From a virus: a stretch of DNA of 64,000 nt. The stretch lies in the IMG/VR virus record IMGVR_UViG_3300009078_000075, positions 1 through 64,000 of that record; one strand, 5' to 3'. The notes below the pieces were generated by a model. It saw only the letters and a list, made by a program, of their open reading frames with translations, was not told the DNA's origin and made no database searches. Below, piece after piece: positions 670 through 39,187 of this stretch (its first letter is position 1; each line of letters opens with the position of its first letter). Both the position numbers and the translations under genes were made by a program.

Positions 670-1248
670 TTAAGTGTTTTGTGTATATTTTTCGTATAAA
701 GAAGAAACCTTTTTAACATAATTCAATGTTTCTTTAAATCTTGGTACCCTTCCCAATTGTCTAACCTTTGTTTCCCCTGCATTATAAGCAGCAATTGTTT
801 TTTCAATGTCCCCATCAAATTTTTCAAGTAAATATTTTATGTATTGAGTTCCCGCTTGAATATTTTGATGGGGATCAAAAGGATCATCTACATTATATGT
901 ATTAGCAATTAAGGGCATAATCTGCATTAATCCCATTGCCCCTTTATTTGACGTTATTTTTGTTCGATAACTTGATTCAGTTTCCAATATTGCTAAAACT
1001 AAATGACGGGATACATTATGTTCTTCTGCCACATCCCGTACAATATTTTGAATCATCATCTTTGTACCACATTCAATAATTAATTGTTTTTTCTCTTTTT
1101 GAGGGGCAATTAATTCATAGTTAAATAATAATGTCCAATGGTAAATTTGTGCTCCGATATAAGTAAAAATAGCACATATAAAAATAAAAAATAGAATTGC
1201 AATAATTTCATTTTTTATCGATGGTTTATAATATTCAAGGGTTAACAT
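670..1248 (-). CDS. Membrane-anchored lytic transglycosylase (SLT domain)
   Basis: This enzyme cleaves the glycan strands of peptidoglycan. A single N-terminal membrane helix lies at about residues 13-34, and the SLT fold at about 65-180. The catalytic glutamate is in the ILETESSYR segment (E91 best fits the ES(G/S) motif). It is followed by the GAMGLMQIMP box (103-112) and the AAYNAG box near 160, all diagnostic of soluble-lytic-transglycosylase domains. The anchor suggests an inner-membrane enzyme exported to the periplasm, acting either at lysis or during DNA entry. The gene has its own class 1 promoter just upstream (1281-1326) with a conserved leader and an AGGAGAAA ribosome site. The absence of tail genes nearby favours the lysis role. 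Confidence 0.9.
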   Translation of the reverse strand: MLTLEYYKPSIKNEIIAILFFIFICAIFTYIGAQIYHWTLLFNYELIAPQKEKKQLIIECGTKMMIQNIVRDVAEEHNVSRHLVLAILETESSYRTKITSNKGAMGLMQIMPLIANTYNVDDPFDPHQNIQAGTQYIKYLLEKFDGDIEKTIAAYNAGETKVRQLGRVPRFKETLNYVKKVSSLYEKYTQNT

Positions 1249-1280
1249 TTTTTTCTCCTTTGTTAAAGGTTTCTGTTTTC

Positions 1281-1326
1281 CCCCTCTATTATATATATCG
1301 ACACATATTACTTTTTTGATCGATTA
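1281..1326 (-). promoter_or_regulatory. Class 1 phage promoter
   Basis: Read on the - strand this carries the core CGATATATATAATAGAG, and 23 bases upstream a CGATC-AAAAAAG box, the same arrangement as the copies at 27961, 46071, 57777 and 58065. It is followed by the shared leader AACCTTTAACAAAGGAGAAA. It should drive the transglycosylase gene. The recurrence at the heads of unrelated genes is the evidence; the sigma factor that reads it is not known. Confidence 0.75.
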
Positions 1327-1334
1327 ATTTTTTA

Positions 1335-1871
1335 TTATAAAGTATAAATTTCCTCTTTTAATTTATCTTTAATTAACTTATGTACTTTATTTTTTAATAA
1401 ATTAATGGTAAACAGGGACTTACCCATGACCTCCGCTATTTCATTTAATGAATAATCCTGTTCGTATCGTAGAAATACAAACATTTTTTCTTTTTCATTC
1501 AGTATATTATATATTATGTCAAATATTTTTTTATTATATTCTTTTTTTAGAACATTATCTTCATAATCTGTATTATCAATAATTGAAAGATCATTTATAT
1601 CAACTTTATTACAATCTTTTGTTACAAATGTATTTACTGCCGATAAAATCCGGCAATAAATACATTTTCGAGCGTAAGTAGCAAATGTTCCCTTACTTTC
1701 AATATAATGTTTTATTGCAAAAATTAATCCATCAATTCCCCCATCATATAAAATATCATATGGAATAAACTTAAATTTTGATGATAAATTATGAATTACA
1801 TAATGGACTAATTTACTGTTTAAATTAAAATACTCTTGCTGTTTATCCGTTAATTTTGTTTCCTTCTTCAT
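1335..1871 (-). CDS. Sigma-70-family factor (phage-encoded), small
   Basis: The 178-residue protein has a region 2-like N-terminal half (helical, with YDILYDGGIDGLIFAIKHY and TFATYARKCIYCRILSAV, the pattern of region 2.2-2.4). The C-terminal helix-turn-helix (about residues 128-172) contains the YSLNEIAEVMGKS recognition motif of sigma region 4. Such proteins redirect host RNA polymerase to phage promoters. It overlaps the preceding gene by 29 bases, showing tight translational coupling. A second, better conserved sigma factor lies at 5027-5665. Two promoter families are visible in the window, which fits more than one phage sigma, though the pairing cannot be read from sequence. Confidence 0.72.
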   Translation of the reverse strand: MKKETKLTDKQQEYFNLNSKLVHYVIHNLSSKFKFIPYDILYDGGIDGLIFAIKHYIESKGTFATYARKCIYCRILSAVNTFVTKDCNKVDINDLSIIDNTDYEDNVLKKEYNKKIFDIIYNILNEKEKMFVFLRYEQDYSLNEIAEVMGKSLFTINLLKNKVHKLIKDKLKEEIYTL

Positions 1872-2289
1872 TACTCACTTCTTTTACTGATTCATCATTT
1901 GAGATTGAATTAGACTGCTCAACGGGAGAAGTATTTTCAGATTGAGATTCATTAATTTTTTCCATTTCCTCTTTTGTAAGGGGAATAAGCTCTACAATAA
2001 TTGATTTAGTTGATGTGTCTTTATATGATCGAATTTTTCCTTGATTATCTTTTACAAAATTCTTCATATCATCAATTGAAATTCTGACCCTATTATTTTC
2101 CTTATGAAGAAGGAAAGCTAAAATATTACCATTATTCATAAGGGATTGTTGAAGTTGCCCACAATATGCTTCAAGTTGCTGAATATAGGCTCTCCCCTGC
2201 TTTATTTGAAGAATTAATTCATTAACCTTTGCTTGCTCCTCTGAATTTCGACCGAGTATCGGGATACCATTCTTATCATATGCAGGCAT
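1843..2289 (-). CDS. Hypothetical protein with coiled coil and acidic tail
   Basis: The 148-residue protein begins MPAYDKNGIP, then has a heptad-like helix (about 15-50), a short conserved-looking middle with lysines and arginines, and an acidic, Ser/Asn/Glu-rich, probably disordered C-terminus. The start has a clear ribosome site (AGGAGAAA). The end overlaps the downstream sigma-like gene. No family was recognised. Coiled coil plus disordered tail could suit an RNA polymerase or sigma partner, but that is speculation from position only. Confidence 0.65.
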   Translation of the reverse strand: MPAYDKNGIPILGRNSEEQAKVNELILQIKQGRAYIQQLEAYCGQLQQSLMNNGNILAFLLHKENNRVRISIDDMKNFVKDNQGKIRSYKDTSTKSIIVELIPLTKEEMEKINESQSENTSPVEQSNSISNDESVKEVSNEEGNKING

Positions 2290-2316
2290 TTTTTTCTCCT
2301 CTTTTAAAAATAAAAA

Positions 2317-2604
2317 TTATTGTATATCAGATGATTCTGATAATCGTTTCTTCCTACCCGTTGCCAATTGTTTTCCCCGTTCTTTTCTCTTTTCAACACT
2401 TTCTTTATCCATTTTTATTGCCTTTTTCTTTTTAATTGTTCCATATGGCATATATGGATACAATGGGCACCCTGTAACTTCACAATCACAGGCACCATCT
2501 TCAAAAGATCCCATACATTCAGCACACTTAGCATATACTGATTGTTTCATCGATAAAGGTTCCCCTTTATTATACTTTTGTAATGCTTTTACTCCTATTG
2601 CCAT
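2317..2604 (-). CDS. Small zinc-binding phage protein
   Basis: The 95-residue protein has a compact cysteine cluster (AKCAECMGSF, ACDCEVTGCPLYPYMPYG) that most likely binds one zinc, followed by a strongly basic Lys/Arg tail. Similar small proteins with the CxxCMG...DC...CPLYP(F/Y)MPY signature are frequent in large phages and lack an assigned role. The basic tail suggests nucleic-acid contact. It is the next gene in a tight leftward run. Confidence 0.7.
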   Translation of the reverse strand: MAIGVKALQKYNKGEPLSMKQSVYAKCAECMGSFEDGACDCEVTGCPLYPYMPYGTIKKKKAIKMDKESVEKRKERGKQLATGRKKRLSESSDIQ

Positions 2605-2606
2605 TT

Positions 2607-2780
2607 TTAATTATCCTTCTTTTTAAAAAATAAAAGACGATACCCAGTTTTTGAACATAAAGGCATATAAAAATTAATATTATCAATCCTCCATCCAAAA
2701 ATGTTTAAAAGATATATTAATGCATTTTCCATTCTTGCATTTATTGTATCCGTTTCATATTCAATTTTTAAATTTCTCAT
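2607..2780 (-). CDS. Small hypothetical protein (57 aa)
   Basis: An open frame fills the space between the zinc protein and the HAD gene, starting MRNLKIEYE and ending KKKDN, 57 residues. It starts only a few bases after a class 2 promoter motif (2783-2796), with no obvious Shine-Dalgarno site, so its message may be nearly leaderless. Alternatively, translation may come from read-through from upstream. The fold and role are unknown. Confidence 0.5.
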   Translation of the reverse strand: MRNLKIEYETDTINARMENALIYLLNIFGWRIDNINFYMPLCSKTGYRLLFFKKKDN

Positions 2781-2782
2781 AT

Positions 2783-2796
2783 ATATATTATGTATT
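2783..2796 (-). promoter_or_regulatory. Class 2 promoter motif
   Basis: On the - strand the sequence AATACATAATATATA matches the TACATAATAWTA motif found upstream of many + strand genes. It lies at the end of the HAD gene and directly before the 57-residue gene. The support is motif recurrence only. Confidence 0.5.
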
Positions 2797-3395
2797 TAAT
2801 ATCTAAAAATTGAATATTTTAAATAAATTTCGTATATTGATTTTACTGCCCAAAAATCAATTCCTTCCCTATATTTTATAAATAAAGATTTGGAATACAC
2901 TTCCGTGTATTTATTATATAATAAAAATGTTGGGAGTCCTAACTCAATTGATATCGTACAACCATGAGGGGCATCATCAATCCAATAATTTATTTTTTCT
3001 TCAATCATTTTTTCTTTTTTATCAGTTACATTTTTTACTAAAATTAATTTATCAATTAAATTTGGAAAAAACCTATTTATAATTTCTTCTGTTTGTTTTC
3101 TAATTTTCTCGGATCTTGCCGTTATTACTATAATTTTATGTCCTTCTTCTTTAAAATGAAGAAGGGCATCAATAGTGTATATATCGGTTATTATATTTTC
3201 TGGTCCCATAAAATAGGGATCTTCTATTAATTCTTCAACCCTATTTTTAAATTCCTGTGGAAAATTTGACCAAAAGTAATCAATTTGTTGAGGAAGATCC
3301 TTTTCTTTTATTTTAAAATCCATTGCAATTTGTTTTTTGAATCCTGTTAAAAATTCAATTAAAGTTCCATCTAAATCAATTCCAATATTACTCAT
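2796..3395 (-). CDS. HAD-family 5'-nucleotidase-like phosphatase
   Basis: The 199-residue protein opens with IGIDLDGTL, the HAD motif I with its nucleophile and acid/base aspartates. Motif II lies in VITARS, and the acidic motif IV region in NYWIDDAPHG. This pattern matches the NT5C-like deoxynucleotidase branch, which removes phosphate from nucleoside monophosphates, or a related phage phosphatase. I chose the ATG at 3395, which has GGGGAA just upstream, over an in-frame TTG four codons earlier. It lies next to the thymidylate synthase-like gene, so a role in shaping nucleotide pools is likely. Confidence 0.75.
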   Translation of the reverse strand: MSNIGIDLDGTLIEFLTGFKKQIAMDFKIKEKDLPQQIDYFWSNFPQEFKNRVEELIEDPYFMGPENIITDIYTIDALLHFKEEGHKIIVITARSEKIRKQTEEIINRFFPNLIDKLILVKNVTDKKEKMIEEKINYWIDDAPHGCTISIELGLPTFLLYNKYTEVYSKSLFIKYREGIDFWAVKSIYEIYLKYSIFRY

Positions 3396-3396
3396 T

Positions 3397-4164
3397 TTAT
3401 TCCCCAATTATTTTAAAATTTTGTTCTTTATGAGTTAATATTTTTGCAACTTCCCAACAATGGTCATATAAGTGTAATCCTTTACTACTTGCAAAGGTTT
3501 GTCCTGGTGATACATTTAATTCATCTGCCATCATTTCTTTCAATATTTGAAAGGCAGCAAGGTTAAGGGGAAGTCCCCCCCATAAATCCCAGGATCGAAA
3601 ATATAAAAACATATTTAATCGATTTCCTTTCATATTAAAATCGATAATCCTACAACATGGAGGATCATTAAGTATAATATCAGACGGGATTCCAATGGTG
3701 GTACAACATTGATTTGTATTTTTTGTTTTTTTAAGTTTTTTTATCACATTTTGTATTTGATTTGTTTTTCTATTTTTAAAAATTTCATATTTTATATCTG
3801 ATTGTATTTCACCTTTTTCTAAATTAATAAAATTACCAAGATCTGAAAATAATCTTTCCCCATATGTATAAATTGTATTTTTTGGTTTATAGGTAGTAAT
3901 AATATAATTTAAATATTGTTCTAAAAACTCATTATCAAATGGAGGAGGAGTTTTAATAGTTTCAGGCATTACTATAAATGGCCTTGTTTCTGGAAAAGTT
4001 ATTTGAAATGAAAGAAAATCATATTCAAGACGTTTTTGTCCGATATATGATCCTTCTTCAATTATATAGGTTAAATTTGTTTTACTTCCTAAATTTAAAA
4101 GTAAACTCATTGCTTGGAACCATAAATCATTTATTGTTACTGCTTTTATTGTTTGTATTTTCAT
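3397..4164 (-). CDS. Thymidylate synthase-like / dUMP hydroxymethylase-like enzyme
   Basis: The C-terminal half carries the thymidylate synthase core: NDPPCC (catalytic Cys170 in the PPC motif), FRSWD (190-193, phosphate-binding Arg), GLPLNLAAF (N201, the position that is Asn in dUMP enzymes and Asp in dCMP hydroxymethylases) and LHLYDH near 231-235. The family transfers a one-carbon unit from folate to a pyrimidine nucleotide. The Asn points to a uracil substrate, giving dTMP or hydroxymethyl-dUMP. The N-terminal half is divergent and the usual C-terminal PYP tail is absent, so the exact product is open. The gene ends two bases from the HAD nucleotidase gene. Confidence 0.75.
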   Translation of the reverse strand: MKIQTIKAVTINDLWFQAMSLLLNLGSKTNLTYIIEEGSYIGQKRLEYDFLSFQITFPETRPFIVMPETIKTPPPFDNEFLEQYLNYIITTYKPKNTIYTYGERLFSDLGNFINLEKGEIQSDIKYEIFKNRKTNQIQNVIKKLKKTKNTNQCCTTIGIPSDIILNDPPCCRIIDFNMKGNRLNMFLYFRSWDLWGGLPLNLAAFQILKEMMADELNVSPGQTFASSKGLHLYDHCWEVAKILTHKEQNFKIIGE

Positions 4165-6434: not shown

Positions 6435-9077
6435 TTATAACTCCTTATAAAAATTGGAAATAGGATACATTTTTGCCCAGTTACCATTTATTTCAGAGCA
6501 TTCAATTTCAATATCTAATGGGACAATAATCCATTCCCATTCCTTTCTTATATCCTCACACATTATTTTTCTTATAATTGGTACCAATTCCATCGTTTCA
6601 TTTGGAACCATGTCAAAAATAATACTATCGTGTATTTGAGCAACAATTTTACTTTTATATTTATTTTGTCTCAAAAATTTATTTATTGTTATTAAAGATT
6701 TTAATAAACAATGGAAAGCCGTCCCTTGTATTGGATAGTTAAGCACATTATTTTTTCTCATTATCCCAGTACATTCAAATCCTGATAATAAGGAAACTTT
6801 CCCCGTACTAAGATAATTTTGCCATGTTTCCTCTTTCCATTGTGTATATACTTTAAATTTTTGCTTCCAAAAAATTTCTTCACATTTTCTTACATGCTCT
6901 TCAAAATCATAATAATCAAAAATACCGTATTTTTCTAAATGTTTTATAACTAATATTCCATCAGCAGTTTTTTCATTTTGAATTGAGTTCCATAAATTTG
7001 GGGCACACTGTTTATAATACGATCCATAAAATTGTGGAAAAACCCACTCATTTTTGGTGATGTATCTTAATTTTTTTGTTACTTGTTGTTTATCTAATTT
7101 AAATAAAGATGCAGCTTCATCTCGATGCATATCAGTAGTTGGATCTTGTATATAATTAATCATTAAAGGATCATGATGATAACATGCACTAAAACGTACT
7201 TCAATTCCACTATAATCAACTTCCATTAAAAAATTTCCCGTTGATGGGATAAATCCGCTTCTTATAAGATATAATAATAATTTATCCCTTTTTGGTATAT
7301 TCTGAATATTTGGATTTAATGAATTGGATCTGTATGTTCGGGCAGTATCTAAATTAAGAAAAAAATGAATAACCCCATCAATTGATTCTTTTAATATATT
7401 GGAAATATATGTTTCATTTGCCTTTGAAAATCTTCTTAAATTTAATAAATCTGAACAAAAGGGGGAATCAATTTTTTCGAGGACTTCTTTATCAACGGAA
7501 TAATTTCCTTTGGTCGTTTCTTTTGTTTTTTCATAATGTAAAATTGTATTAAACAAATTTATAAGTTGGGGATCAGAATTTGGATTAAATTTTATATCGG
7601 GGTGAATTTCATTCCATTTTATAATTTCATCACTTTCCTGAATCCTTTCCCCTATTTTTTTAATTCTATTATCTAAATACCCTTGTTGTTCTATAAAGTA
7701 ATCATAATTTGTACTAATCCCATTTCTTTCAACATATGCAAGTTCAATATTTCCCTGTGTAAATAAATCAATTCCTTTTTTAAGAACAGGATTTTTTTCA
7801 ATTTCTACTAATTGTTTTTCATATTCTCGAAATTCATACATTGAATCCAATCCACAATATAATAATACCTTTTCAGGATTTTTTTCAAAGAATTCCTTCA
7901 TCCTATTAAATCCATTACATCCGTATTTTTCTTCTTCTTCAATAGGGGAACTAATATAAGGGTGAACATCATCATCATATCCGGTTACCCCAAAATCAAC
8001 ATATGTCCTAAATTTTAATCCCGTAGTACTGGGACGATTGTCAAGAATATGTGCTGAAGTTTTTGTGTCAAATAACCATGGGGATACTTCATGGCCACAA
8101 ATTACATTTGTCCATGTATCTTCAAATTTTAAATTTTGTGCTCCTTTTTGTATTTGTTCAGATTGAAGAACCTGCTGATATAAAAAACGAAATTCATCAT
8201 CTTTAAAAAATGGAAAAGCAGTTGCATTATAAGGTCCCGTTGAAATAGAAACACAAATTATTTCATGTCCTTTTCGATACGGCTTTAACCCGGTAGTTTC
8301 ATAATCAAAAAATATAACCGGAGGTTTTTCAAAAAGAAGTTTATTTAAATAATTCTTTGCATCTGATAAATTTAAAATTATTGAAATTTTTTCTTTATCA
8401 TTACTAAAATCAGGAAAAGGGACATCCCAAAAAATTGCCTCTTTTAAATGTTGAATAAATAATTTTTCAGCAGGGGGAGAACAGTTTGCAAATTGCTTTT
8501 CTTCTTTTTGGCGAAGAATAAAAGAAGGATGATACATTGGAAAAATCCATGTTTTTAATGTTTGATCAGGAATTTTCCATCCAACCCATTTTGATATTTT
8601 CCCAACACTATCAATATAATTTCCAATAACTGAATCAAGGGCCTCTTGTCCAAATAATATTATTTTTTTTGGTTGAAGTTCTTTTATTGCATCAAACAAA
8701 AATGGGCGACAACATTTTACATGTTTATTTGTTACCGAATCCATATAAGGAGAACATTTAATGGCATTATCTTTCCATCCATCCCGATCAAGCGAAAAAT
8801 GAAAAGATTTTAAAATTGATCGAAGATATTGCCCTGTAATTCCAATGAATTGTTCATTTTGATTGTCTTCAATAGGACCAGGGAATTGTCCAATAAATAA
8901 AATTCCCTTTTCACCAAGTCCGGTATAGGACATTTTGGGGGATTTACATACTAAATTTAATTTACATGACTCACATGAATACGTTCCTTTTTTTTCTTTT
9001 ACTGCACTTGGTCCCTTTTCTGTATTATTATTTCCCTGCTGTAGTTTTTTAGTTACCTGATCACTATCAAAAAACAT
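6435..9077 (-). CDS. polA: Uracil-DNA glycosylase domain fused to DNA polymerase I (exo + pol)
   Basis: This 880-residue fusion has three parts. Residues 30-215 form a family 4-like uracil-DNA glycosylase: C35, C38, C108 and C122/123 fit an iron-sulfur cluster, with GQFPGPIED (63-71) and YHPSFIL (182-188) as active-site motifs. Residues 253-430 are a 3'-5' exonuclease with FFDYETTG (D259, E261), NLKFED (315-321) and YCGLD (Y408, D412). Residues 440-880 are the polymerase: motif A VDYSGIEVR (D622), motif B from R672 and K676 to YG, and motif C QIHDSI (D818). Motif B is one residue longer than in Taq. It is the replicative polymerase candidate. The 5' nuclease domain of bacterial Pol I is absent. 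Confidence 0.93.
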   Translation of the reverse strand: MFFDSDQVTKKLQQGNNNTEKGPSAVKEKKGTYSCESCKLNLVCKSPKMSYTGLGEKGILFIGQFPGPIEDNQNEQFIGITGQYLRSILKSFHFSLDRDGWKDNAIKCSPYMDSVTNKHVKCCRPFLFDAIKELQPKKIILFGQEALDSVIGNYIDSVGKISKWVGWKIPDQTLKTWIFPMYHPSFILRQKEEKQFANCSPPAEKLFIQHLKEAIFWDVPFPDFSNDKEKISIILNLSDAKNYLNKLLFEKPPVIFFDYETTGLKPYRKGHEIICVSISTGPYNATAFPFFKDDEFRFLYQQVLQSEQIQKGAQNLKFEDTWTNVICGHEVSPWLFDTKTSAHILDNRPSTTGLKFRTYVDFGVTGYDDDVHPYISSPIEEEEKYGCNGFNRMKEFFEKNPEKVLLYCGLDSMYEFREYEKQLVEIEKNPVLKKGIDLFTQGNIELAYVERNGISTNYDYFIEQQGYLDNRIKKIGERIQESDEIIKWNEIHPDIKFNPNSDPQLINLFNTILHYEKTKETTKGNYSVDKEVLEKIDSPFCSDLLNLRRFSKANETYISNILKESIDGVIHFFLNLDTARTYRSNSLNPNIQNIPKRDKLLLYLIRSGFIPSTGNFLMEVDYSGIEVRFSACYHHDPLMINYIQDPTTDMHRDEAASLFKLDKQQVTKKLRYITKNEWVFPQFYGSYYKQCAPNLWNSIQNEKTADGILVIKHLEKYGIFDYYDFEEHVRKCEEIFWKQKFKVYTQWKEETWQNYLSTGKVSLLSGFECTGIMRKNNVLNYPIQGTAFHCLLKSLITINKFLRQNKYKSKIVAQIHDSIIFDMVPNETMELVPIIRKIMCEDIRKEWEWIIVPLDIEIECSEINGNWAKMYPISNFYKEL

Positions 9078-24845: not shown

Positions 24846-27209
24846 TTAAGCTATATAAACATCGGAAATATTAAAAGTATGGGCTAATCTTGATCTTTTT
24901 CTAAACATACAAGCATAACGTACTTCATCTGCTATATGATCCTCTTGACTATTTGCTATATCATCGGGATTTTTATCATCCCGAACAAGAAAAGGAACTG
25001 TTCTAATAAAATCAGTACATGTTGCTAATACATATAATAAAGGTCCCTGTGATTCCTCTTCCCCTTCAAATCGTCCCCTTAATTGTTGCCATCCTGGTAT
25101 TCTTGATTTATCAGATTGTACAAATAAATCATACCCCATTTGTTTAGCTATTGAATCTCCACCCCGCTCTTCCCAAATTTGATTATCTGCGGGCCCTTTC
25201 CTTATATTTAATGATGACCATTTTTTTTCTCTTTCAATTATTCCTTCCCCAATTTTTTTATTAAGTAATCGTAGCCCTGTATTTGGATTAATCGCTTTTT
25301 TATCATTTCCATACCATTCAGAAAATCGAATTAAGGTTCCCCTTGGATATGTTACCCCATTTGGTGCAGGGGTCCCATCTGATTCTGTCCACCATCCAAC
25401 TGAAAATGGGGACCCTGATCCCCAGTCAAAAGAACGAAAACAGAACCAATGTCTGGGAGGTATAAAACATTTTGACAAAGGAATTACATTTTTTGATGAG
25501 TTCCAAACATCGGAAAAAAATCCTCCAACATTTACATCCCATCGTCCATATACCCATGCTTTTACAAGTTCTTTATCGGGAAGAGCCAAAAGACGGGATC
25601 GATATTCGGGGTCCATATTCATAAAAGGAATATTTTCAAGCATGTTTCCAAATATAGAGACCCTTTTATGTCCTTTATCATTAATAACCGTTCCCCATGG
25701 TGCAGGATCAATAAAATAATTTTTAACTGCACTACGTCCGATTCCCCATGGATTCCCTGTGGACCGGATACGGATAGGAATACCCATCCCCGTTGCTCGG
25801 TTACAGCTAATCATACTTTGATAACAATCCATGTCTGGCCAATTTAATAATTCTTCCCATCCGATCCACGAATAACTATTTCCTGATAACCAAGTAGATC
25901 CATTTTGTCTAATAAAAAAATTATGATTTTTTTCAACACCTAAACAATAAACTTTACCATTATATTTTATTCGTTTAATTTGTGATTTTAATTTCTTTTT
26001 ATTTAATTTTCTAATTCTATTGTCAGTATATAATTTAAGTTCTTTTTTTGGATTAAAAGCAATTGTATATAAAATTTTATTTTTACAACCTTCTTTTTTT
26101 TGAATAGCAGAATAAACAGAATACCCGAGTTTTACCCCAATTTCTTGTAAATCATCACTCATTTTTTTAGATATTGTATATATATAAACTCTATTTTGCT
26201 GTTTTGTTCCATCTCCAAGTGCATATGCATCAAAAAAAGCTTGTAAACATTCTCTATTACTTTGTTTTATATTATTAGGAATATATTTATCTTTACATTT
26301 TCCAAATTTAGAAAGGTATAAATATTGTTTTTTATCTCTCCAAACAAATCCAAAATTAGTTTTATTATATTTAATTTTTAAATTGTCAAGAAGATTTTGT
26401 ATAATTTTTACATTTTGTTCCTTTTGTTGACAAATTCCTATTGTATAATGTTTTTTATAAAGATTGGTGTATCCCTCTGATAAAAACCATCCCATAAATT
26501 TACAATAATTAATATCTAAATTCTTTCCTTTTGTTAATTTCCATCCACTATTTTTTATTTTAGTTATTCTTGGTAATTTTGAATATTCTATCAATTCGTT
26601 TGAGATTGAAGGAAGTTTATGTTCTGGGGTAAAAGACATATATTTTCCACGACCATTATAAATTATTAAATCTCCATTATAATCTTCTATTGTTTTGGTT
26701 TTAACCATTTGATAAGATAATTCATTTTTTTTATTAGTACTTAAAACTTTTTCTCCTATTTTTATATTTTGAATAGGTATCCACCCATTTTTTGTTAAAA
26801 TATCCCCTTTATCTACACAATGCCCATGATAGTTATCGTAGTCATTTCGATCCCAAAAATATCGTAAATATAAAAGTTCCCCCCCCGGAAAAGCCCATGT
26901 ATAATCTGCTTTATTAAATTCTGCCTTTGGACATGCCATCCGAAACCATTTTTTTGATTTAATAACAAGATCTGATAATTGTTTATATGTTCGCCTAAAA
27001 AGAATCCCTCTCCAATCTGAGCCATACCCTTTTCCAACCTCTTGAAAGAAATCCATGATTAAAGCATCGGTCTTACCAACTGCCCGTGTACCTGTGTATA
27101 GTACTTGATGATAAGGACATGAAAGAAACAAACATTGAGATCCCGGATTTGGTTTCCAAACAACACTTAAATTATCAAGATTTTTTTTATTATTAAGTTC
27201 TCGGTTCAT
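24846..27209 (-). CDS. terL: Terminase large subunit interrupted by an intein
   Basis: The 787-residue precursor consists of extein 1-130, intein 131-444 and extein 445-787. Extein parts: Walker A-like GTRAVGKTDA (40-49), RRTYKQLSDL (arginine-rich switch), Walker B/catalytic glutamate in IGWEELLNW right after the intein, and the nuclease domain with FRSFDWGSGSPF near its start and a late EDHIADEVRY. The joined protein is about 473 residues, normal for a TerL. It cuts and pumps DNA into heads. The small subunit is directly upstream (the start of terL overlaps its stop) and the portal follows. Confidence 0.93.
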   Translation of the reverse strand: MNRELNNKKNLDNLSVVWKPNPGSQCLFLSCPYHQVLYTGTRAVGKTDALIMDFFQEVGKGYGSDWRGILFRRTYKQLSDLVIKSKKWFRMACPKAEFNKADYTWAFPGGELLYLRYFWDRNDYDNYHGHCVDKGDILTKNGWIPIQNIKIGEKVLSTNKKNELSYQMVKTKTIEDYNGDLIIYNGRGKYMSFTPEHKLPSISNELIEYSKLPRITKIKNSGWKLTKGKNLDINYCKFMGWFLSEGYTNLYKKHYTIGICQQKEQNVKIIQNLLDNLKIKYNKTNFGFVWRDKKQYLYLSKFGKCKDKYIPNNIKQSNRECLQAFFDAYALGDGTKQQNRVYIYTISKKMSDDLQEIGVKLGYSVYSAIQKKEGCKNKILYTIAFNPKKELKLYTDNRIRKLNKKKLKSQIKRIKYNGKVYCLGVEKNHNFFIRQNGSTWLSGNSYSWIGWEELLNWPDMDCYQSMISCNRATGMGIPIRIRSTGNPWGIGRSAVKNYFIDPAPWGTVINDKGHKRVSIFGNMLENIPFMNMDPEYRSRLLALPDKELVKAWVYGRWDVNVGGFFSDVWNSSKNVIPLSKCFIPPRHWFCFRSFDWGSGSPFSVGWWTESDGTPAPNGVTYPRGTLIRFSEWYGNDKKAINPNTGLRLLNKKIGEGIIEREKKWSSLNIRKGPADNQIWEERGGDSIAKQMGYDLFVQSDKSRIPGWQQLRGRFEGEEESQGPLLYVLATCTDFIRTVPFLVRDDKNPDDIANSQEDHIADEVRYACMFRKRSRLAHTFNISDVYIA
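25878..26819 (-). mobile_element. Intein with LAGLIDADG homing endonuclease in terL
   Basis: The 314-residue segment inside TerL starts at Cys131 (CVDKGDILT, block A), has TPEHKL (block B) and VYCLGVEKNHNFFI (block F), and ends WLSGN before a Ser of the extein. The last two residues are Gly-Asn; most inteins have His-Asn, so splicing may rely on another group. Two LAGLIDADG-like helices, FMGWFLSEG and FFDAYALGDG, indicate a homing endonuclease. The insertion lies just before the Walker B strand (YHGH|SYSWIGWEEL), a very conserved place in terminases. Confidence 0.92.
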
Positions 27210-34037: not shown

Positions 34038-34166
34038 ATGAAAGAAAAAAAAGAAAGTATTAAAAAAGTAAATGAAAGAAAAACACTCTTTGAAAAATCT
34101 GAAAAAATGAAAAAATGCATCCAGTCTATAAATGAAATTTTAAGAAAGGGTACAAATGCCAAGTAA
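34038..34166 (+). CDS. Small Lys-rich protein (42 aa)
   Basis: An open frame beginning MKEKKESIKK with AAAAAAGGAATAT before it, 42 residues, strongly basic and helical. Its end overlaps the helicase start by 11 bases, suggesting translational coupling. It may be a leader peptide or a small DNA-binding protein. Confidence 0.5.
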   Translation: MKEKKESIKKVNERKTLFEKSEKMKKCIQSINEILRKGTNAK

Positions 34167-35715
34167 CCCGATCACATGGACAAAACAAAGAATTAATGTA
34201 AACATAGAAAAACTTATTCTCACGGGTATCATCGTATCCGACGAATTTACAAAAGAAATATTCAAAATAATAAATCGTGATAACTTAAAGATATTCAATT
34301 TGCCTTATTTTAAGCTAATTGTGCCCTGGTGCATGGAGTATTATAATAAGTTCCATAAATGTCCCGGGAGAACAATACAAGATTTATTTATTGAAAATTT
34401 TCGATCCCTAAGTGATGAAGATTCCGTTTTTATAAAAGAATTTTTGTCAAACCTTTCCGATCAATACGATTCCGAAGCAAATTCTTTTGATGTTAATTAT
34501 GTACTTGAAAAAGCAAAAAAATATATAAAACTTCAGTCTTATTCATTTTATGGAGAAAAAATATATAAGACTTCATTATCAGGGAATGTAGATGAATGTG
34601 ATTTGATACGTGAAGATTTTAATAAAATGACAATAACAGGTTCCGGAAGTGGAGATATATTAGATAAGTTTGCTAAATCGATTGGTGATTTTCTTCAGAT
34701 GGATATTGAAACAAATCGGTTTTTTCTTAAACCTTTTTTATATCGGGGTGCCCTCATATTAGTACATGGAAAAAGAGGTGCTGGAAAATCATTTTTTAGT
34801 CAATCGATTGCTTTAAGTATTTCAACCGAATTGAAAAATAACAAGGATATTGATTTTGGATCATGGGAAGTATGGAATAAGGCAAAAGTGTTATATGTTA
34901 ATGGGGATGATCCACCGGGGGAAATTTTGTATAGGTTAAAAAAACTTACTCATCGATTTGATTTGACACATGAAAAGAATGCTCTTTTTGAAATTTTGTC
35001 GGTTTTACAATTAAACCAAGAAACACAGACCACTTTTAATTTATATCATAGACCGGATCGTGAAATACTTACTGATTATGTTAGAAAAAATCATGTTGAT
35101 GTTTTGATTCTTGACAACTTGAGTACATTATCTTATGGGGCAGATGATAAAGAGGCAACAAGTTGGGCCCCGGTAAATTTGTGGTTAGTGCAGTTACGGC
35201 AATTTGGTATTTCCGTTATCGTAATTGATCATGAGGGAAAGGACTCGAGTAAGGGGGCACGGGGAACATCGGCAAAATCTGATAGCATGGATGCTGTAAT
35301 AAGTGTTTCAGCAATGAATAATGAAGATGATGAGAATCAAAGCGATTGTTTTTGTGAGATTCGTTTTCAAAAAAGACCAAGAACACAAATTGAAAAAGTT
35401 GATTTAAGTCCTTTTCTTTTTAATATGAAACGGATTGATGAAGAGGAAAATTTAGTGTGGGAAGTACAAAAAAATAAAAGAATCCCAATTGAAAAAAAGG
35501 ATTCTGTATCAAATATAACCATAAAAACCATGGTTCTTGAAGGGTATAATAATAAAGATATTATAAAGGAATGTAATTTAAAAGGGGACTGGGCAATTCA
35601 GAATGTAAAAAAAGATTTAAAAAACAGAGGATACATTGAAGATAATCGATATGGTAAAATTACTGAATCAGGGAAAGAATACCTTGAAAAATTAAAGAAA
35701 TCAGGGATGGAATGA
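34156..35715 (+). CDS. Replicative DNA helicase, DnaB/RepA-type
   Basis: The 519-residue protein has a DnaB-like N-terminal helical domain (about 10-100: VNIEKLILTGIIVSDE, then YFKLIVPWCMEYY). A RecA-fold ATPase follows: LILVHGKRGAGKSFFSQ (Walker A, about 201-217), KVLYVNGDDPPGEILYRL, DVLILDNLSTLSYG (Walker B) and SVIVIDHEGKDSSKGARGTSAKSDSMDAV, typical of RepA/AAA_25 hexameric helicases. The end is a winged-helix-like segment (residues 440-510). It should unwind the fork together with the nearby primase. It overlaps the next gene by ATGA. Confidence 0.85.
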   Translation: MPSNPITWTKQRINVNIEKLILTGIIVSDEFTKEIFKIINRDNLKIFNLPYFKLIVPWCMEYYNKFHKCPGRTIQDLFIENFRSLSDEDSVFIKEFLSNLSDQYDSEANSFDVNYVLEKAKKYIKLQSYSFYGEKIYKTSLSGNVDECDLIREDFNKMTITGSGSGDILDKFAKSIGDFLQMDIETNRFFLKPFLYRGALILVHGKRGAGKSFFSQSIALSISTELKNNKDIDFGSWEVWNKAKVLYVNGDDPPGEILYRLKKLTHRFDLTHEKNALFEILSVLQLNQETQTTFNLYHRPDREILTDYVRKNHVDVLILDNLSTLSYGADDKEATSWAPVNLWLVQLRQFGISVIVIDHEGKDSSKGARGTSAKSDSMDAVISVSAMNNEDDENQSDCFCEIRFQKRPRTQIEKVDLSPFLFNMKRIDEEENLVWEVQKNKRIPIEKKDSVSNITIKTMVLEGYNNKDIIKECNLKGDWAIQNVKKDLKNRGYIEDNRYGKITESGKEYLEKLKKSGME

Positions 35716-35898: not shown

Positions 35899-35973
35899 AT
35901 GTGCCCTTATTGTAGTGTTTTTTTATTGTTCGGATTTATTTTAGGATTACTTGTTTATCATCTTTTTTTTTAA
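35899..35973 (+). CDS. Tiny membrane peptide (24 aa)
   Basis: MCPYCSVFLLFGFILGLLV... is a single hydrophobic helix starting after AGAGGAAAAATAAA. It ends just before the ribosome site of the HNH-QueD gene. It may be a real micro-protein or a spacer; only the ribosome site and helix support it. Confidence 0.35.
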   Translation: MCPYCSVFLLFGFILGLLVYHLFF

Positions 35974-35985
35974 GGAGAAATAAAT

Positions 35986-36924
35986 ATGATTTGTAAAGAA
36001 TGTGGAATTAATTTTTCTATAATAACCCATACTCATTTAAAAAAACATAATCTTACAATAAATGAATATAAAAATAAATATAATATAGTTTCTTTGGTTG
36101 ATCCATGTTTTGGACAAAAAATGAGTATGAAGTTAAAGGGGAAAATTAATATAGGAGAAAAAAATGCAAGTAAACGAAAAGAAGTAAGATCAAAAATTTC
36201 TGAATCTGTTAAAAATAGATGGGAAGAAGGAAAGTATAAAAATCGTATAAATGGGATGTTAGGAAAACTCGGAGAATTGTCTCCTAATTTTAAGATTGAA
36301 AAAAGAACTCCTTTGTTTTTGGCAGAACACAATTATGTAAAATTTTTGTCTCAATTTCAAGATACACATGTTTGTAGTTTGTGTAAAAGTTCCGATAAAA
36401 AAATTAATATACATCATATTGATGAAGATCATTCTAATTTTCTTCCTTCTAATTTAGAACCTTTATGTGTTCCGTGTCATTCTCAATATCATTATAAATT
36501 TGCAAAGGGACCTTTTATGAGAATTGGTAAATTTTTTTCTTTTGCTGGTGCTCATTTTTTACCTGATTATGATGGTATTTGTAATCATCTTCATGGGCAT
36601 GAATGGAAATTAGAAGTGTTTGTAAAAAAAAGAGTTAATTATAAGACTGGAATGGTTTTAGATTTTACTATTTTAAAAAAAATAGTAGATAATTTTATTA
36701 TTTCAAAATTAGATCATTGTTTTTTAAATGATATTATATCTAATCCAACTGCGGAAAATATATTAATTTGGATATGGGAAAAATTAATGTTTGATGGTTT
36801 ATTAAAAGGAATAGATGAAATAAATTTATGGGAAACAGAAAAAAGTAAAATTTCTCTCAGTAGTAAAGAAATGCTATCTATTTTTTCAAATAATATTGAA
36901 GAATATATTTTGGGGGAAATATGA
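35986..36924 (+). CDS. queD: HNH homing-endonuclease-like domain fused to QueD
   Basis: The 312-residue fusion has residues 1-177 as a homing-type HNH protein: an N-terminal zinc-like CKECGINF...THLKKH, a NUMOD3-like SESVKNRWEEGKYK, then CSLCKSS, IHHIDEDHSNFLPSNLEPLC and CHSQYH (HNH core). Residues 178-312 are a complete QueD (6-carboxytetrahydropterin synthase): FSFAGAHFL, CNHLHGHEW (catalytic Cys and zinc His), LDHCFLN, PTAENILIWIWE and LWETEKS. QueD makes the pterin precursor of preQ0. An internal ATG at 36517, 6 bases after AAGGGA, would give QueD alone. The gene overlaps queE by ATGATG. Confidence 0.9.
   Translation: MICKECGINFSIITHTHLKKHNLTINEYKNKYNIVSLVDPCFGQKMSMKLKGKINIGEKNASKRKEVRSKISESVKNRWEEGKYKNRINGMLGKLGELSPNFKIEKRTPLFLAEHNYVKFLSQFQDTHVCSLCKSSDKKINIHHIDEDHSNFLPSNLEPLCVPCHSQYHYKFAKGPFMRIGKFFSFAGAHFLPDYDGICNHLHGHEWKLEVFVKKRVNYKTGMVLDFTILKKIVDNFIISKLDHCFLNDIISNPTAENILIWIWEKLMFDGLLKGIDEINLWETEKSKISLSSKEMLSIFSNNIEEYILGEI
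36517..36924 (+). CDS. queD: Possible internally started stand-alone QueD
   Basis: The frame from Met178 of the fusion is an exact-length QueD (135 residues), and AAAGGGA sits 6 bases before the ATG. Both long and short products may be made. Listed separately because the short form is the one that matches free QueD enzymes. Overlaps the entry above. Confidence 0.5.
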   Translation: MRIGKFFSFAGAHFLPDYDGICNHLHGHEWKLEVFVKKRVNYKTGMVLDFTILKKIVDNFIISKLDHCFLNDIISNPTAENILIWIWEKLMFDGLLKGIDEINLWETEKSKISLSSKEMLSIFSNNIEEYILGEI

Positions 36925-37592
36925 TGATAAAAGTAAATGAAATATTTTTATCAATTGATGGTGAAGTAAATGCCTTTGGTCAGGGGGGATTTTCTACATT
37001 TATTCGTTTTTCTGGTTGTAATTGTAAATGTAATTATTGTGATACTCAGTATCATAATACTGGTACTTATTATTCAATTGCACAAATTATGGATAAAGTA
37101 AGGGAAATCGGATGTAATAAAATAACAATCACAGGGGGGGAACCTTTGCTTCAATCAGAAAGTATACCCTTGATTGAAGCATTAGTATTTAGTCATCATA
37201 GTGTTTCCGTTGAAACAAATGGATCAATTGAAGTTCCTTTTATAATGGGATCATTTTATTTGTCATTTGTGGTGGATTATAAATTACCATCATCCGGAAT
37301 GATGGATCGAATGAAACCGATAAAAATGTTTCAAAAATTAGGACCCCTTGATTTTGTAAAATTTGTTATTCAAAATGATGAAGACTTTTTATGTGCTTGC
37401 CGTATTGCAAAAGAGGTGAGAAGTGTAAATTATGGGACATCAATTGCTTTTAGTCCTGTATTTTTAAAACAAGATGATGGTCGTTTTATTCAATCGTATC
37501 CCTTATATGATAAAATGATTGAAGCAAAACTATTTGAAATTCCAAAAATGTTTCTTAATTATCAAATTCATAAAATAATAGGATTAAAGTAA
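36921..37592 (+). CDS. queE: QueE, 7-carboxy-7-deazaguanine synthase (radical SAM)
   Basis: The 223-residue protein has the QueE form of radical SAM cluster, GCNCKCNYCDTQYH (CxxxCxxC). It also has IFLSIDGEVNAFGQGGFSTFIRFSG before it and KITITGGEPLLQ (SAM-binding GGE) after it. It converts carboxytetrahydropterin to CDG, the second step of preQ0 synthesis. It starts within the stop of the HNH-QueD gene and is followed 12 bases later by queC. Length and motif order are full. Confidence 0.95.
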   Translation: MMIKVNEIFLSIDGEVNAFGQGGFSTFIRFSGCNCKCNYCDTQYHNTGTYYSIAQIMDKVREIGCNKITITGGEPLLQSESIPLIEALVFSHHSVSVETNGSIEVPFIMGSFYLSFVVDYKLPSSGMMDRMKPIKMFQKLGPLDFVKFVIQNDEDFLCACRIAKEVRSVNYGTSIAFSPVFLKQDDGRFIQSYPLYDKMIEAKLFEIPKMFLNYQIHKIIGLK

Positions 37593-37604: not shown

Positions 37605-38285
37605 ATGAAATTAGATAATGATAATTGTCTTGTTCTTTTATCTGGGGGACAAGATTCTACTACTTGTCTTTTTTGGGCATTAAATAATTTTAATGAAGTA
37701 AATGCTCTGTTTATTAATTATAAACAAAGGCATCGAATAGAAGAGGAATCAGCTTTTAAAATTGCAAATCTTGCTGGTGTTCCCATTGGATTGATATGTA
37801 CTGATATTATAGCAGATATTGGGGATTCTGCCCTTGTTATGACGGGAGATATTTTAAGTAAACATAGATCCGGGGATTTACCGGCTTCTTTTGTACCAGG
37901 AAGAAATATTTTATTTTTGACAATAGCTGCTATGTATGCTTATAAATTAGGAATACATAATATTGTGGCAGGGGTTTGTGAAACTGATTATTCAGGATAT
38001 CCCGATTGTAGACAAAAAACGATTGATTCTGTTCAAAATACCCTTAATTTGGGAATGGAATATGATTTTGTTATACATACCCCTTTGATGTATAAAACTA
38101 AATGTGAAACTGTTATAATGGCTTCTTTATTGTCCGGGTGTTGGGATGCCCTTGCATGGAGTCATACATGTTATGAGGGAAAAATTCCACCTTGTGGTAA
38201 ATGCCCTTCATGTGTGTTGAGGGCACGTGGATTTGAAGAAGCCGGATATGAAGATCCTTTAATAAAAAGACTGGGGATTAAGTAA
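37605..38285 (+). CDS. queC: QueC, preQ0 synthase
   Basis: The 226-residue protein has LLSGGQDSTTCLFWAL (PP-loop ATPase), a central FVPGRNILFLTIAAMYAYKLG, and the zinc site CYEGKIPPCGKCPSCVLRARGF, all as in QueC. It amidates and dehydrates CDG to preQ0 using ATP and ammonia. Its stop overlaps the next gene by one base (TAATG), so it is translated with it. preQ0 is the direct substrate of DpdA-type enzymes. Confidence 0.95.
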   Translation: MKLDNDNCLVLLSGGQDSTTCLFWALNNFNEVNALFINYKQRHRIEEESAFKIANLAGVPIGLICTDIIADIGDSALVMTGDILSKHRSGDLPASFVPGRNILFLTIAAMYAYKLGIHNIVAGVCETDYSGYPDCRQKTIDSVQNTLNLGMEYDFVIHTPLMYKTKCETVIMASLLSGCWDALAWSHTCYEGKIPPCGKCPSCVLRARGFEEAGYEDPLIKRLGIK

Positions 38286-39187
38286 TGAATAAATTATTTT
38301 ATACTTGGAGAGATTTTCAAAAAGATGTTAATTTATTAGTTGAGACGTGTACAAGATATTCAGCAATATATGGGGTTCCCAGAGGGGGAATTCCCTTGGC
38401 CGTTGCTTTGTCTCAAAGAACCGGAATTCCTATTATTGAAGATAAAGAACAAGTAATACATGATAATACAGTATTAGTGGTTGATGATATAGTAGATTCA
38501 GGAAAAACAAGGAATAAATTTTTAAAAAATAATTTTATTGCAATTCATGGTCGATGTAAATGGGAAGACACATTGACTATAAATTGTTTAAATTATTCGG
38601 ATGATTGGATTGTTTATCCTTGGGAGGTTGATACTGAAAATACAGGTCCTACAGATTCAGTAACCCGATTGATTGAATTTATAGGGGAAGATCCAAATAG
38701 GGAAGGCATTATTGATACCCCAAAGAGAGTTATTAAATCATATGAAGAAATATTTAAGGGGTATATACAAGAACCTTCTCAAATATTTACTACTTTTGAT
38801 TCAGAGGGATATGATTCCCTTGTAATGCTTAAAAATATAGAAATATATTCTATGTGTGAGCATCATATGCTTCCTTTTTTTGGAAAAGCCCATATAGCGT
38901 ATATTCCAGATGGAAAAATAATCGGGATATCTAAATTAGCAAGACTTGCAGAAATTTATTCACGGAGAATGCAAATTCAAGAAAGAATAGGGGAACAAAT
39001 TACCTCTGATTTAATGAAATATCTTAAACCAAAGGGGGCAGCATGTATTATTGAGGCTTCCCATTTATGTATGAGGATGAGAGGGGTAAGTAAGCAAAAT
39101 TCTACAATGATGACCAGTTCTTTAAAAGGTGTTTTCCTTGAAAATATTTCTGCTCGACAAGAGCTTATGGAATTGATAAAAGATTAA
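38285..39187 (+). CDS. folE: Phosphoribosyltransferase-FolE (GTP cyclohydrolase I) fusion
   Basis: Residues 1-125 form a phosphoribosyltransferase domain: RYSAIYGVPRGGIPLAVAL and VLVVDDIVDSGKTRNKF (PRPP motif). Residues 126-300 form GTP cyclohydrolase I: DPNREGIIDTPKRV, SMCEHHMLPFFGKAHIAYIP (zinc Cys/His), SKLARLAEIYSRRMQIQERI and SHLCMRMRGVSKQ. FolE makes dihydroneopterin triphosphate from GTP, the first step for QueD. The PRTase could recycle purine bases or deazapurine to nucleotides, but its ligand is unknown. This fusion is unusual. The last gene of the que operon. Confidence 0.92.
   Translation: MNKLFYTWRDFQKDVNLLVETCTRYSAIYGVPRGGIPLAVALSQRTGIPIIEDKEQVIHDNTVLVVDDIVDSGKTRNKFLKNNFIAIHGRCKWEDTLTINCLNYSDDWIVYPWEVDTENTGPTDSVTRLIEFIGEDPNREGIIDTPKRVIKSYEEIFKGYIQEPSQIFTTFDSEGYDSLVMLKNIEIYSMCEHHMLPFFGKAHIAYIPDGKIIGISKLARLAEIYSRRMQIQERIGEQITSDLMKYLKPKGAACIIEASHLCMRMRGVSKQNSTMMTSSLKGVFLENISARQELMELIKD

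Follow-up and report, generated by a model that had tools for sequence, protein, structure and literature searches.

HNH nuclease-QueD fusions in uncultured phages: candidate homing elements that may replace the queD gene they enter

The DNA analysed here, called the window, comprises 64,000 nucleotides of an uncultured virus (positions 1 to 64,000 of IMG/VR record IMGVR_UViG_3300009078_000075), and the subject of this report is a gene within it that joins an HNH nuclease to QueD. The record, 82.5 kb in size, is that of a tailed phage with terminase, portal, head protein, and DNA polymerase, and the fusion gene holds the queD position of a preQ0 operon. As proposed in a first-pass annotation made from the sequence alone, HNH and QueD are joined in frame: one frame of 312 amino acids contains a zinc finger, the HNH domain, and a complete QueD domain (Table 1). 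Pfam searches detected PTPS/QueD at residues 180-291 with an E value of 5.4e-27. The HNH domain at residues 130-170 was matched with 3.5e-3 in the whole protein and 3.9e-4 in the nuclease half alone, which reached 21.0 bits at a cut-off of 21.4. A ROS_MUCR-like zinc finger at residues 2-34 (E 4.5e-5) remained just below the cut-off, and NUMOD3 was matched weakly, in one family member. The AlphaFold2 model of the fusion has a mean pLDDT of 83.5, with about 90 for HNH and about 95 for QueD. In fold comparisons, the QueD part matched E. coli QueD (4ntk; TM 0.87-0.88) and 2oba (TM 0.90-0.91), and the domain belongs to the T-fold PTPS proteins by both Pfam and fold match.

Residues expected for activity are present in both halves. 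In the HNH domain, these are the catalytic H143/H144, N156, and H165 and the zinc cysteines 130, 133, 161, and 164; in QueD, the active-site residues (AH, CxxxHGH, DH, E) are H190, C199, H203, H205, D243, H244, and E283. Judging from these intact residues and the fold, the fused QueD is presumably functional. Accessory DNA-binding modules, as known from HNH homing endonucleases, are represented by the zinc finger, by other modules in related fusions, and by the NUMOD3-like stretch. The HNH domain, this stretch, and the exchangeable N-terminal DNA-binding parts support the assignment of the nuclease half to the homing type. An intron or intein origin of the fusion was rejected, since Rfam searches of nine fusion loci gave no match to group I intron RNA at the gathering threshold, with none relevant in the window region, and Pfam gave no Intein/Hint match in the window fusion protein, whose QueD is uninterrupted.

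Relatives were identified by scanning IMG/VR contigs, with the fusion protein of the window as query, and by alignments. In total, 17 distinct HNH-QueD fusions were found on contigs of uncultured viruses, mostly from different samples: the window, L001, L014 (equal to L015), L016, L017, L018, L019, L025, L026, L027, L049, L050, L055, L057, L058, L059, and L074. In the NUMOD-HNH-QueD core, identity to the window is 38-62% for the ten fusions aligned first. Zinc-binding and catalytic residues of QueD (H, C, HGH, DH, E) are invariant in all 16 aligned fusions, and the catalytic H/N/H of the nuclease is kept in 15; only L058 has lost H143/H144 and H165. Because 17 independent contigs carry an HNH-QueD fusion, it is neither a chance product nor a recent accident of the window phage. 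All sequences are metagenome-assembled viral contigs, which could raise the suspicion of an assembly or sequencing artefact, but with 17 contigs from mostly different samples, open frames, and conserved active sites, the probability of this explanation is negligible.

The N-terminal parts of the fusions vary. The ROS/MucR-like zinc finger is shared by the window, L016, and L026, L014 has a helix-turn-helix-like region, and other zinc-finger and helical regions are found in the remaining fusions. At the other end, the fused clade typically carries a C-terminal GMLS extension; the HNH-QueD protein of L074 (5452-6774) has a C-terminal extension containing a P-loop-like GKTT motif. Scans based on HNH retrieved mostly fusions, and the few QueD-free HNH genes were weak matches (L020-L022, L061). 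Searches of cultured phages returned no nuclease-fused relative, the matches being QueD-only or HNH-only, and in GTDB genomes QueD and HNH genes were found separately with no fusion. No report of QueD fused to HNH or a homing endonuclease was found among the open-access papers listed.

Upstream sequences of several fusions contain parts of a second queD. Orphan queD 5' fragments are located directly upstream of the fusion in L001, L014/L015, L016, L055, and L074. While the fragment in L001 is fused in frame to HNH-QueD, the others form frames of their own with their own Shine-Dalgarno sequence and start codon, comprising the first 22-27 codons or so of another queD. All five stop just before or at CxxxHGH. 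When 1.43 million six-frame 16-mers were scanned with a profile, only real QueDs and four of the fragments (L001, L014, L016, and L055) scored that high; the L074 fragment was recognised solely by visual inspection. The same scan detected no queD fragment at the other fusions tested. Each of the four scored fragments is nearer to a stand-alone QueD than to the fused QueD of its own contig, with BLOSUM62 scores of 70 (to L039) versus 50 for L014, 69 (to L037) versus 52 for L016, 81 (to its own resident QueD) versus 36 for L055, and 46 (to L037) versus 26 for L001. In the contigs where the insertion is still visible, the fused QueD is a different QueD from the broken resident.

In L055, the order is fragment, HNH-QueD, intact resident queD, queE, and 65 of 66 bases from the ATG of the resident queD recur in the fragment as a direct repeat. 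L039 is the empty-site counterpart of L014, with dnaB, queD, and queE collinear and queD uninterrupted; the two are 65% identical in dnaB, 82% in the queD 5' end, and 70% in queE. A search for queD alone at the same locus had been suggested in the first-pass annotation, and the pair of L039 (empty) and L014 (occupied) supplies it for relatives, not for the locus of the window itself. In L014, no recognisable remnant of the 3' part of the resident queD was found between the fused QueD and queE. In L014, L016, and L055, the leader extends across the start of the fusion gene, which suggests that their translation is coupled; for T4 mobE, such an arrangement has been interpreted in this way (PMC2988022). 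The fragments are short, and one reached a profile E value of 0.002-0.006 on its own. They could accordingly be taken for short leader genes or chance matches next to a nuclease that had always been upstream. Against this stand the scores of the four fragments, exceeded only by real QueDs, the position of all five directly at the fusion start, the near identity of the L055 fragment to its own resident queD, and the alignment of the L014 fragment to the intact L039 queD. This explanation is thus very improbable.

A different origin had been favoured in the first-pass annotation, namely that in the window phage a free-standing HNH gene entered the DNA immediately before queD and was deprived of its stop codon, while the ribosome site downstream was retained, so that the fusion and free QueD may both be made. 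The sequence elements on which this was based were confirmed. In alignments, ATG 36517-36519 (M178) falls where stand-alone QueDs naturally begin, for example L044 MKIGRIFRFEAAH, and AAAGGGA precedes it by 6 nt. The anti-Shine-Dalgarno energy at this ATG is -5.0 kcal/mol, compared with a median of -5.8 for window genes and -9.2 for the start of the fusion itself; it exceeds 30% of the window genes in strength, but an equally strong site precedes 14% of all internal in-frame ATGs in the larger window genes. The internal start is thus not clearly beyond chance. The bases of AAAGGGA also specify residues K-G-P in the linker, and a K-x-P-F motif is found again in relatives.

At the position equivalent to M178, relatives have V, I, T, L, and other residues. 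The codon is a start codon in four of 16 fusions (ATG in the window, which is the only one with ATG at the junction, GTG in L025 and L050, TTG in L017), and the 12 others compared have none there. Fair Shine-Dalgarno sequences accompany three of these codons, with sites comparable to that of the window in L050 (-5.6) and L017 (-5.3) and none in L025. L058, which is decisive for the family with regard to QueD translation, no longer has the catalytic histidines of HNH (HHID to TFVD, CH to CR), while its frame is open and its QueD intact, and no usable start is present near the junction. A dead nuclease in an open frame with no internal start implies that QueD is normally made in fused form, as the C-terminal portion of the translated protein, and mainly at full length; additional free QueD may be made from 36517 in the window phage. 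A retained ribosome site is therefore not general, and the internal start was rejected as a general mechanism on the basis of the codon and Shine-Dalgarno comparison and of L058. Moreover, the fusion is old and common to 17 contigs, and the visible insertions in L001, L014, L016, L055, and L074 lie inside queD, before CxxxHGH, not upstream of it. Insertion upstream of queD with loss of a stop codon is, on balance, improbable.

Phylogenetic analyses bear on the history of both halves. The fused QueDs group together with support of 77/31 in a careful tree of 33 sequences; in a quick tree of 61 they form one clade (SH-aLRT 98) with one nuclease-free member, L085. HNH and QueD trees both pair L014 with L016, L018 with L027, and L049 with L050, and both place L001 near L025. 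Both halves therefore travel together, and the fused QueD, rather than being the resident gene, is cargo that has a history of its own. The nuclease-free QueD of L085 (2391-2816) starts with MIKFTYPVEITREF, resembling the linker of the L059 fusion, and may have lost its nuclease. A second type of fusion was detected in L088 (5116-6465), where LAGLIDADG_2 (2e-21) is fused to QueD (3e-30) and a second QueD follows directly downstream. The fused QueD of L088 is outside the HNH-QueD clade in the tree, and a search for relatives of this fusion returned only itself. A LAGLIDADG nuclease has thus been joined to QueD independently of HNH. The L088 fusion sits after the end of a ribonucleotide-reductase-like gene.

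From these data it appears probable that a homing-endonuclease element with its own QueD invades queD and takes over its function, the window gene representing an established copy. A more specific version, a natural home-and-rescue element in which the homing nuclease breaks queD at the active-site codons, spreads by virtue of a functional, diverged QueD in the same polypeptide, and has evolved at least twice (HNH, LAGLIDADG), is put forward tentatively, its chances being somewhat below even. An element of this kind, in which a complete, catalytically intact QueD is covalently linked to an HNH nuclease whose N-terminal DNA-binding modules are exchangeable, would enter queD of other phages at codons just before the CxxxHGH motif, leaving the 5' end of the resident gene behind as an orphan leader. 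The fused domain would supply QueD function and make the resident queD dispensable. Deletion or frameshift of the nuclease would then cost QueD, so that the nuclease frame would be protected from decay. The junction on the 5' side has an illegitimate appearance, and homologous exchange between both queDs could account for the resolution of the 3' side. In the window phage, the 5' remnant has presumably been lost, and the fusion is the sole queD and would act in preQ0 synthesis with QueE, QueC, and FolE.

Several points weigh against this invasion of queD by a homing element. Cleavage of queD DNA and mobility by break repair are steps that we infer. The main difficulty is the resident queD of L055, which is intact beside the nuclease although it carries the presumed target; this copy may not be a substrate, it may be shielded, for example by modified bases, or the nuclease may nick it without cutting through. 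Single contigs underlie both the structure of L055 and the empty site, and 12 of the 17 fusions, including the window, show no queD fragment. The N-terminal parts differ, so queD need not be the target in every lineage. Finally, monophyly of the fused QueDs is weak in the careful tree, the high value coming from the quick one.

The main rival is a domesticated role in phage competition, in which the protein is a bifunctional enzyme that no longer homes; HNH would, for example, cut unmodified DNA of competitors or the host, and QueD would feed 7-deazaguanine DNA modification. Both active sites are conserved in the long term, most records show a fixed place in the preQ0 operon, and one study provides a precedent for an intron endonuclease acting in phage competition (PMC11620839). 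Domestication is nevertheless unlikely, as DNA-binding modules change between lineages, insertion scars are visible in queD, L058 and apparently L085 no longer have the nuclease in functional form, and a second nuclease family does the same. In addition, no base-exchange enzyme of the TGT family (PF01702) was detected in 14 records tested, although DpdA may escape that search.

Comparison with known systems indicated that the QueD fusion is ordinary in its parts but unusual in their combination. The nearest described system is the mobile open reading frames (mORFs) of fungal mitochondria, which make hybrid atp6, atp9, cox2, and nad3 genes according to a Glomus report (PMC3630166), which cites Allomyces atp6 (Paquin et al. 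1994). In both cases an endonuclease open reading frame (ORF) enters a protein gene with a foreign gene piece that takes over coding, the native end becomes a remnant, and the native part matches uninterrupted relatives while the inserted part does not. This combination of insertion, diverged replacement, and native remnant is present in L001, L014, L016, L055, and L074, and is extended to the window by kinship only. However, mORFs replace the 3' end and have the nuclease downstream, whereas here the 5' end is displaced and the nuclease is N-terminal to the whole enzyme; here, moreover, the elements occur in phages, and the nucleases are HNH or, once, LAGLIDADG. The free-standing HNH homing endonucleases MobA-MobE of T4-like phages, with mobE inside nrdA of Aeh1 (PMC2988022), likewise have variable DNA-binding parts, an insertion at a critical part of a gene, and a start/stop overlap suggesting translational coupling, but there the gene is split into two polypeptides that reassemble, whereas the QueD element carries a complete fused copy. 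HNH and LAGLIDADG inteins also have the nuclease in frame with an enzyme and inserted at an active-site motif; the QueD fusion differs in having no Hint/splicing domain and a QueD that is wholly C-terminal and uninterrupted. Inteins do occur in L016: between the CxxxCxxC cysteines of QueE (6549-8180), the neighbour of the fused queD, lies an HNH-intein whose HNH is about 30% identical to that of the window, and DnaB (1067-3817) contains a LAGLIDADG intein. Synthetic home-and-rescue or cleave-and-rescue drives (PMC7968924, PMC7951863) similarly consist of a nuclease element carrying a diverged functional copy of the disrupted gene, but they are engineered with Cas9 in insects, whereas the phage element would be natural and a single polypeptide. 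With bacterial and phage QueDs (E. coli 4ntk; Dp-1, 9g) the window protein shares the fold and all active-site residues, and it adds the N-terminal nuclease and the C-terminal GMLS extension.

Selfish homing genes usually spare genes, either by an intergenic position or by splicing out. Breaking a useful gene and replacing it by a fused copy would be a third survival strategy, so far seen mainly in fungal mitochondria. Such a strategy would explain the origin of nuclease-enzyme fusions, the frame that stays open after death of the nuclease, and the swapping of phage metabolic genes between distant phages. A natural analogue of 'rescue' drives would become open to testing, using queD DNA and the proteins in purified form.

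The genes around the fusion are listed in Table 1. The route from FolE via QueD, QueE, and QueC to preQ0 is established, as is the use of preQ0 in phage DNA (PMC6884629). A helicase gene upstream of queD is also present in L014, L039, L049, L050, L055, and L058, and queE is the downstream neighbour in most relatives, too.

Table 1. Features of the fusion gene and its neighbours in the window
Feature	Position	Strand	Evidence and remarks
DnaB/KaiC-type replication ATPase, upstream of fusion gene	34156..35715	+	Pfam
Shine-Dalgarno AAGGAG of fusion gene	35972..35977	+	-9.2 kcal/mol; overlaps stop (35971-35973) of 24-codon upstream ORF
HNH-QueD fusion gene, 312 aa	35986..36924	+	Open frame; related fusions in other contigs
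ROS/MucR-like zinc-finger region, residues 1-34, likely DNA binding	35986..36087	+	Pfam; also L016, L026; other modules elsewhere
NUMOD3-like stretch, residues 57-91, conserved W79, G82, R87	36154..36258	+	Alignments
HNH nuclease domain, residues 130-170	36373..36495	+	Pfam, alignment; model pLDDT about 90
Linker K-G-P-F and junction residue M178	36496..36519	+	P[FY] in most fusions
AAAGGGA, possible internal Shine-Dalgarno	36504..36510	+	-5.0 kcal/mol; 6 nt before ATG 36517-36519
Complete QueD domain, residues 178-312	36517..36921	+	Pfam, alignment, fold match
QueE (radical SAM), overlaps fusion gene end	36921..37592	+	Pfam
QueC	37605..38285	+	Pfam 5.6e-66
Phosphoribosyltransferase-like domain fused to FolE	38285..39187	+	Pfam

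The phosphoribosyltransferase-FolE fusion is the same in L028 and L049, with an alignment over 280 residues. Among L014, L016, and L055, several phages encode a QueC-like protein that matches the QueC family only in part, and downstream of folE they have a further radical-SAM gene. A TGT match was absent where tested, and the base product of these phages may be unusual. Elsewhere in the window, the DNA polymerase A (6435-9077, minus strand) has an N-terminal domain of the uracil-DNA-glycosylase superfamily. The terminase large subunit of 787 aa (24846-27209, minus strand) contains an internal LAGLIDADG_3 domain and a weak intein-splicing match, and this insert is probably an intein.
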